A DNA stretch of 64,000 nucleotides, from assembly GCF_900109145.1 (NCBI RefSeq), contig NZ_FNYY01000003.1, positions 290,955 to 354,954 on the forward strand, written 5' to 3'. Positions 1 to 9,324 of the stretch are shown here, piece by piece. The notes below the pieces were generated by a model, which ran no database searches, had not been told where the DNA came from, and saw nothing but the letters and a program-made list of their open reading frames with translations. Source of the stretch: Marinovum algicola. GTDB taxonomy: Bacteria > Pseudomonadota > Alphaproteobacteria > Rhodobacterales > Rhodobacteraceae. Every line of letters starts with the position of its first letter. Position 1 is the stretch's first letter. Both the position numbers and the translations under genes were made by a program.

Positions 1-174
1 GATGACCTCGTGCTTGAAAGCAAAGGCGAAAAGGTTGTGGTAGACGCGGTGTCGCTGCCGTTTCTGACCGAGGCGGTCATCGATTTCAGCGAAGAGCTGA
101 TCGGCGCGCGTTTCGTGATCGAGAACCCCAATGCCACCAGCGCCTGCGGCTGCGGCACGTCATTTTCGATCTGA
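1..174 (+). CDS. HesB/IscA/ErpA-family iron-sulfur carrier, C-terminal part
   Basis: Only the last 57 codons are in the window; the gene starts before base 1. The tail SACGCGTSFSI is the C-terminal cysteine motif (CGCG) of A-type iron-sulfur carriers, which with an upstream cysteine holds a [2Fe-2S] or [4Fe-4S] cluster and passes it to apoproteins in the cytoplasm. The preceding VENPNA-like stretch (here IENPNATSA) is also typical. IscA, SufA and ErpA cannot be separated from this fragment. The stop codon lies at 172-174, and the gene converges on the EamA transporter with an 7-base gap. Confidence 0.85.
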   Translation, partial: DDLVLESKGEKVVVDAVSLPFLTEAVIDFSEELIGARFVIENPNATSACGCGTSFSI

Positions 175-181
175 GGTTGGA

Positions 182-1117
182 TCAGCCCCGTGCCAAGACG
201 GGCTTGCGAAAGCTGACCGGCATCGCATGGTCCGGCGCGGTTTCCGCCTGGGATTGATCGAATACCAGGTAAGCGCCTGAAACCATGACGATAATCGCGC
301 CGATCAGCGTGCTGGCCTGGGGCACTTCGTTGAACACGACCAGCCCGATCAGCACCATCCAGACGAATTGCAGATTCATCAGCGGTGTGACCGCATAGGC
401 GGTGAGATGGCGCAGCGCGATCACCAGAAGCAGCCGCGCCGAAAACAGCACCACCGCGCAGAGCACCGCCATCATCAGATCGAACAGCGGCATCGGCTGC
501 CAGCCCAGAGGCGCCAGAAGCAGCATCGACAGGAAGACCGCGAGCTGCGGATAGAAAACCTGGGCCAGCGGCGTGTTCTCGCGCCGCCCGATGTAGCGCG
601 ACAGCACGATCGAACCGGTGCCCGAGACCGCGCCGATGAAGGCCGCGATGTGGCCTGTGGTTATCGTCGACAGGCGAATCTCGACCATGCACAGCACCCC
701 GAGAAAGCCGCATCCCAGCGCGACCCAGGCAGCCGGGCGCACCCGTTCCCCAAGAATCGGCCCCGACATCAGCGCCGAAAGCAGCGGCACCAGCGCGACA
801 AAGAGAAAGACCTGCGCCAGCGCCAAAGTTGCCAGCGCATAAAAGAACATCACCGTCGCCACCACCGTCAGCGCGGCGCGCATCGCCATCACGCCGGGGA
901 AATTGGTGCGCAGGGTCACCTTTTCGCCGCGTACCCGGCTGCTGCCGAGCGACATCAGCGCGATCAGCAGCGCAATGATGCTCAGAAGCTGCGGCGCGCC
1001 ATAGGATTGCGCCAGGTATTTCGTGATCGCATCGGAAAAGGTGATCAGCAGCGTATAGATCAGCACCAGCCCGGTGCCGAAAGTCGTGATACTGATCCCT
1101 GCCGGCCCCACCCGCAT
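182..1117 (-). CDS. DMT superfamily (EamA) membrane transporter
   Basis: A 311-residue protein with about ten hydrophobic segments in two halves, the layout of EamA/DMT exporters in the inner membrane. Loop residues such as GPILGERVRPAAW after the first half and VFNEVPQASTLIGA near the end match the conserved half-domain ends of the family. The ATG at 1117 overlaps the stop of the upstream gene in an ATGA arrangement, so the two are translationally coupled. It is the last gene of a three-gene leftward cassette with a 57-residue peptide. The substrate is unknown; many relatives export amino acids or metabolites, and export of a peptide-derived product is only an inference from context. Confidence 0.85.
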   Translation of the reverse strand: MRVGPAGISITTFGTGLVLIYTLLITFSDAITKYLAQSYGAPQLLSIIALLIALMSLGSSRVRGEKVTLRTNFPGVMAMRAALTVVATVMFFYALATLALAQVFLFVALVPLLSALMSGPILGERVRPAAWVALGCGFLGVLCMVEIRLSTITTGHIAAFIGAVSGTGSIVLSRYIGRRENTPLAQVFYPQLAVFLSMLLLAPLGWQPMPLFDLMMAVLCAVVLFSARLLLVIALRHLTAYAVTPLMNLQFVWMVLIGLVVFNEVPQASTLIGAIIVMVSGAYLVFDQSQAETAPDHAMPVSFRKPVLARG

Positions 1118-2214
1118 CAGGCGCTAACCTTTTGTGCGCGGGCGAATTCTTCGAAAAACGCCTCGAAATGCCCGGTCGAGGCCTCGGCCTGGGCCAGTCG
1201 CGCGCGGGCGGTGTCGGTCAGGTTGGCGCCGATCTGGCTGCGCATCGCGGCCCAGGCGTCAGAGCGGTCGTCCATGCGGAACAGCTGAACCGAGATTTCG
1301 CGCAGCGCCGCCGATCCGGCGCGCGGCCGGTGAATGGCCAAGGCCCCCGACTGGCCCCTGCGGCGCAACGGCACTTCGCCAAAGGGCGTTTTTCCCTGAA
1401 CGCCGGCAAGCCAGGACGAGGTCAGATATTCGTGATAGACATCGGCCACGGGCCGCTGCCCCGGCTGGCCTGCATCCAATTCTGAAATCTCAAATTCGCT
1501 CATCTTGCAATTGATCCACTCTTCCCAAATCCCCGAGGGGTTGAAACCTGCATAGCGCATTGCCACGCAAATCTCAGCAAGAAGATCCAGGTTTCCGTCA
1601 AGAAAAGCCAAAAGCCCTGCATTCTCCAGCGACCGCAGCTCATTCGGCCCCAGATCCGGGTCTTTCCGCCCATACTCCGAGAGGTAGAATACGATGTGCG
1701 TCAGCTCGAAGGCAGCCTTTTTGTTGGGCAATGCAAAGCGTTCCGGACGCGCAATGAAGTCACGCAGACGCGCTTCAGCGGCACCCTGGTCGCCAAGTGG
1801 ATCCATTCCGCGCCGTTGCATCAGCCGAAAAGCCTCGGCACGTTGGATGTCAGAGGTCTCTCCGCCGACCAGATCCTGCCGCAGCGCCCAGGCGCACATC
1901 GATTCGGCATGATCACCCGGCATCCCGAGCGCCTCGAGATCGAGGGTCAGCGAGAGGATGAAGCGATAATATTGGGGAAAGAACGCCAGCTTTTCGCGGG
2001 CGTTGTCATAGAAGGCGCCATAAGGCTCCAGCAGCGTCGCCGGAACCTCCTGGCCGGTGCATTCGAGGATGTTCAGCAGCTCGGCGTTTTCCTTGAGCCA
2101 GAACACATCCTCGGGGCCGCGCCGATGCGCGGCGAATGAGCGGATGAGCGCGCCGGAACGCGCCGCTCGCCGCTCCCTGGGGCCGGGCACATTCAAATAG
2201 ACAACGTTCGACAT
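1117..2214 (-). CDS. Uncharacterised 365-residue protein (probably Pfam DUF6902)
   Basis: No catalytic motif that I can name. From memory it resembles a Rhodobacterales-restricted family called DUF6902; this needs a search. It is soluble and helix-rich. The best-conserved-looking block is about residues 160-185 (PNKKAAFELTHIVFYLSEYG), and the C-terminal third holds YHEYLTSSWL. Cysteines are scattered (near residues 53, 107, 215 and 236) and form no CxxC pair. The start at 2214 has a strong GGAGGA ribosome site. It sits 63 bases downstream of a 57-residue peptide gene and overlaps the EamA gene by ATGA, so the three genes form one operon. A role in modifying or binding the peptide is a hypothesis only. 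Confidence 0.8.
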   Translation of the reverse strand: MSNVVYLNVPGPRERRAARSGALIRSFAAHRRGPEDVFWLKENAELLNILECTGQEVPATLLEPYGAFYDNAREKLAFFPQYYRFILSLTLDLEALGMPGDHAESMCAWALRQDLVGGETSDIQRAEAFRLMQRRGMDPLGDQGAAEARLRDFIARPERFALPNKKAAFELTHIVFYLSEYGRKDPDLGPNELRSLENAGLLAFLDGNLDLLAEICVAMRYAGFNPSGIWEEWINCKMSEFEISELDAGQPGQRPVADVYHEYLTSSWLAGVQGKTPFGEVPLRRRGQSGALAIHRPRAGSAALREISVQLFRMDDRSDAWAAMRSQIGANLTDTARARLAQAEASTGHFEAFFEEFARAQKVSA

Positions 2215-2277
2215 GATTGGGTCCTCCGATGAATATCAAATGCGCCCGGTCCGAGCGTGTTCAGTCCTGCGCGCCGC

Positions 2278-2451
2278 TCAGGACACGCACATCATCGCCT
2301 GGACCTGGTCACCGTCGAACATGTCGGTGCCGGTTTCGATCGAGACGCACATCATCGTGTCGACGTGATCGCCGGCCGAGATCTCGGTGGTCTCGATGAC
2401 CAGTTCTTCGGTTTTGGTTTCGTTAAGGGTTTCTTGAACAAGTGCGAGCAT
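2278..2451 (-). CDS. 57-residue acidic peptide with duplicated MMCVS core
   Basis: A short gene read leftward, ATG at 2451, GGAG ribosome site 7 bases upstream, stop at 2278-2280. Residues 1-18 form a lead section. Residues 19-37 and 38-57 are two copies of one unit: both begin IET, contain a G-D-x-V step, and end MMCVS (residues 33-37 and 53-57). The second copy ends exactly at the C-terminus. Twelve Asp/Glu against one Lys make it strongly acidic. It has two cysteines, one per unit, and no signal peptide or membrane segment. The pattern of leader plus repeated short core resembles precursors of ribosomally made, modified peptides. Function is unknown; a metal- or thiol-binding peptide is an alternative. 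Confidence 0.75.
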   Translation of the reverse strand: MLALVQETLNETKTEELVIETTEISAGDHVDTMMCVSIETGTDMFDGDQVQAMMCVS

Positions 2452-2460
2452 CGTGTGTCT

Positions 2461-2484
2461 CCGTGTTGAATGTTTTCGACACGG
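2461..2484 (-). promoter_or_regulatory. Hairpin overlapping the peptide gene's ribosome binding site
   Basis: On the leftward transcript the arms CCGTGT and ACACGG (2479-2484 and 2461-2466) can pair around a 12-base loop. The Shine-Dalgarno bases GGAG (2459-2462) start inside the second arm, 7 bases before the ATG at 2451. Pairing would hide part of the ribosome site, so translation of the peptide could be controlled. The stem is only six base pairs, so this is suggestive only. Confidence 0.35.
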
Positions 2485-2528
2485 CCAGATTTCTCCACCC
2501 TTCCGAGCATTTCAAAACATTTTTCAAC

Positions 2529-2572
2529 TATACCTTGTGGATAAGTCTTTTATCCACACAAGATATGGTATA
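2529..2572. promoter_or_regulatory. Inverted pair of perfect DnaA boxes in an extended dyad
   Basis: TGTGGATAA (2536-2544) and TTATCCACA (2550-2558) are both exact copies of the strong DnaA-box consensus, facing each other with five bases between. Outside them TATACC (2529-2534) and GGTATA (2567-2572) extend the symmetry. The site lies about 80 bases upstream of the peptide start and 205 bases upstream of xthA. It could be a DnaA-controlled promoter or a DnaA-titrating site. It could also be an operator of another protein that uses a similar sequence. Confidence 0.5.
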
Positions 2573-2776
2573 CAGGCATTTGCCAATATTACATAAAACC
2601 TAAATCGCACAAATTTATAGCACGGCCGGAAAATCCCAGAAAATCGCGGGTTGCGGCAGTAAATTCCATCGAATCAACTATAGCTTATGCGCATTTCGTC
2701 GCTGGACCCGGCGCAATTTTGCGCTTGTCCCCTGACCCTATCGAAAGGATATTGGCCTCCGATCAAGGAGGCCGCG

Positions 2777-3559
2777 ATGAAGATTGCCACTTTCAACATT
2801 AATGGCATCAAGGCGCGAATCAATGCGCTGACCGATTGGCTTGGCGATGCCGCGCCGGATGTCGCCGTACTTCAGGAGATCAAGTCGGTCGACGAAGGCT
2901 TTCCCCGAGAACATTTCGAGGACATGGGGTACAATGTTGAAACCCATGGTCAAAAAGGCTTCAACGGGGTCGCCCTGCTTTCGCGCCTGCCGCTCGAGGA
3001 TGTGACCCGTGGCCTGCCCGGCGATGACAGTGACGAACAGGCGCGCTGGATCGAAGCCACTGTAATGGGATCGCAGCACGCAATCCGGATCTGCGGGCTT
3101 TACTTACCTAACGGCAACCCGGTCCCCGGCCCCAAGTACGATTATAAACTTGCCTGGATGGAACGGCTGAAAATCCGCGCCGAAACCTTAATGGCAGAAG
3201 AGCTCCCCACACTTATAACGGGAGATTTTAATATAATTCCTCAATCAGAAGATGCAGAAACGCCCGCGCAATGGAAAGACGACGCGCTTTTCCTTCCGGC
3301 GAGCCGCGCCGCTTTCCGTCGGATCGAGAATCTGGGCTATACCGAGGCCTTTCGCGCGCGGGTTCAGGGGCCCGGGCATTACACCTTCTGGGATTACCAG
3401 GCCGGCGCCTGGCAGCGCAACAACGGCATCCGGATCGATCACTTCCTGCTGTCGCCGGAATGCGCGGATCTAATGCAGGATTGCCAGATCGACGCCGCCG
3501 TGCGCGGCGGCGAAAAGCCTTCGGATCACGTGCCGGTCTGGGTCGATCTCGCCGCTTGA
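2777..3559 (+). CDS. xthA: Exodeoxyribonuclease III
   Basis: A 260-residue exonuclease/endonuclease/phosphatase-fold enzyme that cuts DNA at abasic sites and degrades 3' ends in base excision repair. The metal-binding Asn7 (FNING) and Glu34 (LQEIKS), the GDFNI block near residue 153 and the C-terminal SDHVPVWVDL with the catalytic His are all present. The length is normal for bacterial ExoIII. The start at 2777 is chosen because the protein family begins MKIATFNING and an AAGGAG ribosome site sits at 2765-2770; an in-frame ATG at 2687 would add an unrelated 30-residue tail. Confidence 0.95.
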   Translation: MKIATFNINGIKARINALTDWLGDAAPDVAVLQEIKSVDEGFPREHFEDMGYNVETHGQKGFNGVALLSRLPLEDVTRGLPGDDSDEQARWIEATVMGSQHAIRICGLYLPNGNPVPGPKYDYKLAWMERLKIRAETLMAEELPTLITGDFNIIPQSEDAETPAQWKDDALFLPASRAAFRRIENLGYTEAFRARVQGPGHYTFWDYQAGAWQRNNGIRIDHFLLSPECADLMQDCQIDAAVRGGEKPSDHVPVWVDLAA

Positions 3560-3566
3560 GACCGGC

Positions 3567-3611
3567 GGATGCGCGGTGGGTTGAGAACCCACTCTATAAA
3601 GCCGCGCATCC
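3567..3611 (+). repeat. Nested inverted repeat downstream of xthA
   Basis: An outer stem GGATGCGCGG (3567-3576) pairs with CCGCGCATCC (3602-3611). Inside it TGGGTT (3577-3582) pairs with AACCCA (3586-3591) around a three-base loop, leaving a ten-base A/T-rich bulge (3592-3601) on the 3' side. It lies between the convergent xthA and HupE-like genes and may work as a terminator or mRNA 3' end, although it lacks a T run. Confidence 0.5.
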
Positions 3612-8067: not shown

Positions 8068-9324
8068 ATGACCCCGACACCTTCCGAGATGCTCAGCGCC
8101 TTCGGGCGGATCGGGCTTTTGTCTTTTGGCGGCCCGGCGGCGCAGATCGCGGTGATGCACCGCGAGCTGGTCGACGACCGCAAGTGGATGACCGAGGCCC
8201 AGTTCCTGCGCGCGCTCAGTTTCTGCATGATGTTGCCCGGCCCCGAGGCGATGCAGCTTGCCACCTATGCCGGTTGGCGGTTGCGCGGCACCTTCGGCGG
8301 CGTGCTGGCCGGGCTGCTCTTTGTCCTGCCGGGGGCCGTGGTCATCACCGCGCTGGCCGCGATCTACATCAGCTATGGCGAAGTGCCGCTGGTGCAGACG
8401 CTGTTTCTGGGCGTCAAGGCAACGGTGATCGTCATCGTCGCCCAGGCGCTGGCGCGGCTATCGGGCAAGGCGCTGAAAGGCGCGGGCGACGTGGCGCTGG
8501 CGGTGGCGGCATTCGTGGCGCTCTTTGCCCTGCACCTGCCGTTTCCGCTGATCATCGCGCTGGCGGCGCTGATCGGCGCGCTGCGCGCGCCTGTGGTGCC
8601 GGACGAGGCCCTGCCGCCGCGCCGGGGCCGCGCACCCTGGCTGGCGGTTCCGGTCTGGGGCGGGCTCTGGCTGCTGCCGCTGGTGGTCCTCTGGACGCTC
8701 AACATGCCCTTCCTGCTCGATCTGGCGCTGTTCTTCGGCAAGCTGGCGCTGGTCACCTTCGGTGGCGCCTATGCGGTGCTGGCTTATATGACCCAGGAGG
8801 TGGTGCAGGCCCAGGGCTGGATCACCACCGCCGAGATGATCGACGCGCTGGGCCTGGCCGAGACCACCCCCGGCCCGCTGATCCTGGTGACACAATTCGT
8901 CGGCCACCTGGCCGGCTTCAACGAGACCGGCTGGGCCGGGTTTGCCCTGGCCGGGGCGCTGACCCTCTGGATGACCTTCACCCCCTGTTTCCTGTGGATC
9001 TTCGCCGGCGCGCCCTATCTCGAACAGATCACCGCCCGGCCGCGGATCGGCGCCGCGCTCTCGGCGGTGACGGCGGCGGTGGTCGGTGTGATCGCCAATC
9101 TCTCGGTCTGGTTCGCCATCGGCGTGCTGTTTGCCCAGAGCGTCACATGGGCGGTCGGGCCGGTCCGCCTCACCCTGCCCGCCCCGGCCAGCCTCGATCC
9201 GACGGCGCTGCTGCTCACCGCATTTGCCGGCGGTCTGATCTTTGTTCTGCGCCTCGCGGTGCCGCTGACGCTGCTCTGCACGGCCCTGGCGGCGGTGGTG
9301 CTGATGTGGATCACCGGAATGTGA
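8068..9324 (+). CDS. chrA: Chromate transporter, ChrA family (two-domain)
   Basis: A 418-residue inner-membrane protein of the CHR family with two homologous halves. The first half opens with FGRIGLLSFGGPAAQIAVMHREL and contains MMLPGPEAMQLATYAGW. The second half has FGKLALVTFGGAYAVLAYM and GLAETTPGPLILVTQFVGH. Both the FGG and PGP motifs appear in each half, as in full-length ChrA proteins that export chromate. The start at 8068 fits the usual N-terminus; 8017, with a better ribosome site, would add 17 residues. No ChrB regulator is adjacent, so chromate may not be the natural substrate. Confidence 0.88.
   Translation: MTPTPSEMLSAFGRIGLLSFGGPAAQIAVMHRELVDDRKWMTEAQFLRALSFCMMLPGPEAMQLATYAGWRLRGTFGGVLAGLLFVLPGAVVITALAAIYISYGEVPLVQTLFLGVKATVIVIVAQALARLSGKALKGAGDVALAVAAFVALFALHLPFPLIIALAALIGALRAPVVPDEALPPRRGRAPWLAVPVWGGLWLLPLVVLWTLNMPFLLDLALFFGKLALVTFGGAYAVLAYMTQEVVQAQGWITTAEMIDALGLAETTPGPLILVTQFVGHLAGFNETGWAGFALAGALTLWMTFTPCFLWIFAGAPYLEQITARPRIGAALSAVTAAVVGVIANLSVWFAIGVLFAQSVTWAVGPVRLTLPAPASLDPTALLLTAFAGGLIFVLRLAVPLTLLCTALAAVVLMWITGM

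Follow-up and report, generated by a model that had tools for sequence, protein, structure and literature searches.

A repeat-peptide and DUF6902 cassette between xthA and erpA of Marinovum algicola and its relatives: a candidate multicore precursor with a predicted peptide epimerase

What is made from a short acidic peptide that carries two near-copies of one ending, and what does the protein encoded directly behind it do? The question is raised by one end of a 64,000-nucleotide stretch of the Marinovum algicola genome (contig NZ_FNYY01000003.1), the whole of which is referred to here as the window. A first-pass annotation had placed a peptide, a 365-residue protein and an exporter together at this site and had read them as a precursor with its partner. 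All three open reading frames (ORFs) are present on the minus strand, as listed here together with the two repeat units.

2278 to 2451, minus strand: acidic, precursor-like peptide of 57 residues (ORF; a peptide of the same plan lies upstream of DUF6902 at 61/61 loci)
2341 to 2373, minus strand: repeat unit 1, GDHVDTMMCVS, peptide residues 27-37 (sequence and DNA repeat)
2281 to 2313, minus strand: repeat unit 2, GDQVQAMMCVS, peptide residues 47-57, reaching the peptide C-terminus (sequence and DNA repeat)
1117 to 2214, minus strand: DUF6902 protein of 365 residues, predicted peptide epimerase (PF21843, 456 bits; PF21836 (DUF6895), 73 bits; hhalign; structure model)
182 to 1117, minus strand: EamA (DMT) transporter of 311 residues, likely exporter and optional member (PF00892; present at 47/61 loci)

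The two copies of a unit ending in MMCVS, as described earlier, are both 11 residues long and repeat in the DNA at a step of 60 nt. The gap of 63 bases between the peptide and DUF6902 genes is also as described, whereas the second junction, given as a gap of -3 bases, is a 1-base TGATG overlap. As a genetic system the cassette is strong. Its chemistry, judged from sequence and predicted structure, is most likely that of a precursor resembling those of ribosomally synthesised and post-translationally modified peptides (RiPPs), accompanied by an epimerase (DUF6902) and, at some loci, by an exporter.

The argument is carried by the association of peptide and DUF6902. Genomes were searched with DUF6902 as the sole query, so that the peptide formed no part of the query, and 61 loci (L001-L061) with close to moderate relatives (39-79% identity) were obtained. 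At least two units in one frame lie just upstream of DUF6902 at all 61 loci, compared with one of 1220 random stretches from the same loci. The first-pass annotation had proposed counting such co-occurrence and had held that its absence would refute the idea; instead, the repeat peptide recurs with DUF6902, its tail identical within each peptide, and the layout of precursor and partner is strongly supported. A short precursor gene beside a candidate modifying enzyme, as would be expected of a RiPP system, was thus found at 61/61 loci. In a second set (L062-L091), which shares species with the first (for example L063 with L003), the unit pair is upstream in 29 of 30 loci, the exception being L072, and among 20 divergent loci chosen by hand from weaker DUF6902 matches, units precede the gene in 18 (exceptions L122 and L141). 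No unit pair, DUF6902 or EamA was found in 20 xthA-erpA intervals of genomes without a DUF6902 match, which were hand-picked from a sample of 100 genomes, in most cases because xthA and erpA lie far apart in them. Since phmmer with one precursor as query gave 8 relatives, precursors were counted by their genomic context; a pattern search limited to MMC-type tails likewise gave few matches, and it was a wider listing that revealed the peptide family.

Units were counted in 58 intact precursors, the count leaving out L005 (contig end), L027 (short) and L049 (internal stop). These peptides have 55-222 residues and a net charge of -29 to -4, and together hold 377 units, 2 to 10 each; L067, from the second set, has about 15. 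MTAQRK (19/58) and MTAQLK (7/58) are common starts, the linkers, read by eye, mostly open with a small residue and Pro, and 51 of the 58 peptides stop exactly at the end of a core. The units follow the plan G-[DE]-x-[VT]-x-[ML]-F-[TS]-S-x-x (GDxVEMFxSxx), with tails that include SSGS, TSGS, TSSL, TSSM, TSGA, TSWS, CSWS, STSM, TTSA, TSAS and MSGS; relatives of the window peptide have MCAS and MCCS, and the window itself MCVS. Position 9 is Ser in 343 units, Thr in 27, Cys in 6 and Phe in 1 (L018), columns 1 and 7-11 being partly fixed by the search pattern, which restricts their letters (S, T, C or F at position 9). A recount with positions 8-11 left free gave 405 matches and the same overall picture. 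Its 36 matches off the majority tail, read manually, comprise 28 out-of-register overlaps, 3 chance linker matches and 5 genuine variants that differ at a single residue (L006, L018, L022, L043 and L058), and the Phe of L018 is its sole in-register unit outside S, T or C at position 9.

No Pfam family matched eight of the precursors, and no NCBIfam model scored above cut-off for seven to eight of them; the window peptide and the DUF6902 protein had no NCBIfam match up to E 1. The earlier suggestion of a metallophore looks weak, as the Cys of MMCVS belongs to the small group that includes the window peptide and few other cores have Cys. At one divergent DUF6902 locus (L125) the peptide has a different plan, with about eight ALSPSC-type repeats replacing the Fx[STC]xx tail. 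The precursor is interrupted by a stop in L049 and short in L027, and the DUF6902 frames of L018 and L058 are cut short, which suggests occasional decay or sequencing error.

How the copies vary is more informative than their number. Over 1179 unit pairs within peptides, agreement is 99-100% at positions 8-11, 93% at position 7 and 35-52% at positions 2-6; between genomes it is just 39-40% at positions 8, 10 and 11. Several copies of one core, alike within a precursor, are therefore present throughout the 377 units and 1179 pairs, as in multicore RiPPs. Linkers diverge while tails stay the same within a peptide, and when identical core residues other than Met and Trp were compared, 2851 of 5570 pairs (51%) differed in codon, so that many copies must be old and their identity held at the protein level. 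On a quick DUF6902 tree (85 rows, 84 of them tail-labelled; 24 of 82 inner branches well supported), the five-residue tail changes at least 34 times, with 1 change at position 7, 18 at position 8, 7 at position 9, 14 at position 10 and 17 at position 11; the tree drops 6 of 91 rows (two cut short, the others identical), and for L088 the most frequent of its tails was assigned manually. One tail per peptide, combined with repeated change between lineages, means that all copies change together, again and again. Such a pattern would arise from a set of identical products or from one strict reader, and at the level of sequence it is that of a multicore precursor. DUF6902 residues that might track the tail were also sought: V217 and I339 occur in 6/6 rows with Thr at position 9 and 19/73 with Ser, but independent pairs cannot reach significance and the candidates were not used.

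The 365-residue protein had been described as unrelated to any nameable enzyme, a description that no longer holds. It belongs to DUF6902 (PF21843, 456 bits against a cut-off of 27, residues 1-360) and is homologous to DUF6895 (PF21836, 73 bits against 23.8, residues 28-219), and its best named relatives include Marinovum proteins at 85-87% identity. The two families align by hhalign at E 2.7e-7, are both predicted to be alpha/alpha toroids and share the same His/Asp/Glu motifs. A sequence search of solved structures with the DUF6902 profile gave no match up to E 10, and Foldseek gave none below E 0.001. DUF6895 is the family of a published lasso-peptide epimerase (Shi et al., ACS Catal. 2026, as cited in PMC13352647), and from this kinship and the shared motifs we believe that DUF6902 is likely a peptide epimerase. 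In two other genomes (L100, 8104-8304 and 8446-8703; L101, 8937-9368) small peptides, paired or repeated and with GxLVGxWxV-like cores, come immediately before DUF6895 genes and are perhaps another precursor family.

On these observations we propose a model. The N-terminal part of the peptide would serve as a leader, and DUF6902 would read the GDxVEM stretch of each unit and flip the handedness of one residue in its tail, with H173 and H261, together with D210 and E214, as putative acid/base residues in the toroid cavity. Position 9 is our first guess for the modified site because nearly all units have Ser, Thr or Cys there; the divergent locus L123 has YIAGL, with Ala at this position. The tails would be excised after modification and, where EamA is present, would likely be exported by it. 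We hold this account, a multicore RiPP-like precursor whose tails are inverted at one residue, cut out and in some genomes exported, with moderate confidence.

Multicore RiPP precursors such as those of cyanobactins and orbitides have a leader-like start followed by several copies of a short core. The window peptide resembles them in both respects, but Pfam reveals no enzyme of the cyanobactin or orbitide type in the window operon, and the GDxVEMFxSxx plan matches no Pfam or NCBIfam model. In activity the closest parallels are lasso-peptide epimerases. The DUF6895 enzyme comes from a related family with shared motifs and, by its title, acts on a ribosomal peptide (Shi et al., cited in PMC13352647); its substrate is a lasso precursor rather than a multicore repeat precursor, and DUF6902, which Pfam treats as a family of its own, has an additional C-terminal portion. 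MslH, the epimerase of lasso peptide MS-271, is described as flipping the handedness of a residue at the C-terminus of a ribosomal peptide with mass otherwise unchanged, as we propose here; the likeness is one of described activity, and MslH differs in being metal-dependent, by its title, and in acting on a single core rather than an array (PMC10406935). No lasso cyclase or leader peptidase gene was found by Pfam among the eight genes, not counting that of the peptide, that lie between erpA (included) and position 9324, and the cassette is not classed as a lasso system. Other enzymes with an alpha/alpha toroid fold, sugar 2-epimerases among them, differ in their sugar or terpene substrates and are about 10% identical or less; a fold in common shows no function.

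There are alternatives to this model. The precursor may be a multicore RiPP on which DUF6902 performs another change, such as cyclisation, isomerisation or alteration of a Ser, Thr or Cys side chain, a possibility that we entertain tentatively. Side-chain chemistry would suit the presence of Ser, Thr or Cys at position 9 in 376/377 units, and terpene cyclases, like the cyclase portion of a lanthipeptide synthetase, are toroids too. However, the sole published relative is, as cited, named an epimerase, and spacing at the loci examined leaves only EamA as an additional gene between xthA and erpA, with no further enzyme. Alternatively, the peptide could stay unprocessed and act as a multivalent protein, its identical tails serving as docking motifs to which DUF6902, then only a binder, or another partner attaches. 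We think this unlikely. One strict reader would indeed enforce identical tails within a peptide, and helical toroids (C3d-like folds) can be plain binders, but the invariant His, Asp and Glu motifs common to DUF6902 and DUF6895 look catalytic, DUF6895 has an enzyme published under its name, and 51/58 precursors finish exactly at a core.

A third alternative is an ordinary repeat ORF next to an unrelated DUF gene, with no functional link, and the interrupted or short precursors (L049, L027) and shortened DUF6902 frames (L018, L058) could be taken in that sense. Given the 61/61 loci against 1/1220 stretches, the persistence of tail identity over diverged codons and the lack of a unit pair at the 20 cassette-free sites, we regard this explanation as barely credible.

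The cassette occupies a conserved site, with neighbours at the 61 loci located by tblastn. Its flanking genes, which lie outside the system, and two DnaA boxes in the window are as follows.

2777 to 3559, plus strand: xthA, exodeoxyribonuclease III (TIGR00195, 241 bits; adjoins the cassette at 60/61 loci)
1 to 174, plus strand: end of erpA (partial match to NF010147; 56/61 loci)
2536 to 2544, minus strand: exact DnaA box TTATCCACA (pattern search)
2550 to 2558, plus strand: exact DnaA box TTATCCACA, inverted, 5 bases from the first (pattern search)

Divergent xthA lies upstream at 60/61 loci, the single exception being a contig end, and convergent erpA downstream at 56/61. The exporter of the first-pass annotation is a genuine EamA protein (PF00892, two stretches, 60.4 bits against a cut-off of 28.2) but not a constant one: it follows DUF6902 at 47/61 loci, and in the remaining 14, which are without it, erpA is at most 119 bases away. 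EamA is thus a dispensable member. DUF6902 matches occur in 82 of 295 sampled genomes of the family. In a sample of 101 genomes of the order, 25 have a match above cut-off, as does none of 14 controls. Two records titled as the actinobacteria Enemella (L053) and Nocardioides (L061) bear a Roseobacter-type cassette in the xthA-erpA setting, and hence their titles are probably wrong.

The two boxes are the only ones in the window and the sole close pair among 14 exact copies of TTATCCACA in the 5.4 Mb genome; the pattern in reverse, taken as a control, has 27 occurrences, and the box is therefore not a frequent sequence in this genome. An exact box TTATNCACA lies between xthA and the peptide gene at 42 of 60 loci (L005 omitted) and is lacking at 18. 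Where boxes are present, they often sit near -110 and -186 relative to the start codon. The xthA-peptide regions hold 59 boxes within 21.4 kb, and all 61 loci 61 boxes in 770 kb. In the second set a box is present at 22/30 loci, with 38 of 40 boxes in this region, and in the divergent set at merely 5/20. As the cassette-free intervals contain no exact box in 31.8 kb (20 sites), the boxes track the cassette and not xthA. Bases adjoining the 9-mer are less conserved, the 9-mer itself being fixed by site selection. These positions suggest control of the cassette by the replication initiator DnaA, whose binding is predicted from the boxes; E. coli DnaA prefers boxes 2-3 bp apart (PMC11317965), a spacing unlike that found here. 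Rfam gave nothing at gathering score in window positions 1-3600, and a scan with 1 promoter-like and 2 terminator-like sites was little above chance (0.7 each in shuffles).

Within the literature and database searches made, no description was found of the precursor family, of the enzyme subclass or of the promoter arrangement; the open-licence literature, which cannot speak for print in general, contained nothing on DUF6902 or the peptide family. It is conceivable, though a long shot, that the cassette makes a signal specific to each lineage of the Roseobacter group, a peptide with a D-amino acid: each precursor would give many copies of a single short peptide, every copy with one residue flipped by DUF6902, the tail changing in concert between lineages in the manner of a pheromone and the operon switched by DnaA and so tied to chromosome replication. 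If our proposal is correct, a precursor family that is common (82/295 family genomes) yet unnamed, with an uncharacterised enzyme subclass, would be present in a bacterial family abundant in the sea. The array would also be a natural experiment, in which tails change jointly while linkers drift, so that enzyme specificity and concerted evolution may be read from sequence, and the DnaA boxes would connect an operon for a small peptide with the control of replication in a way that can be tested.
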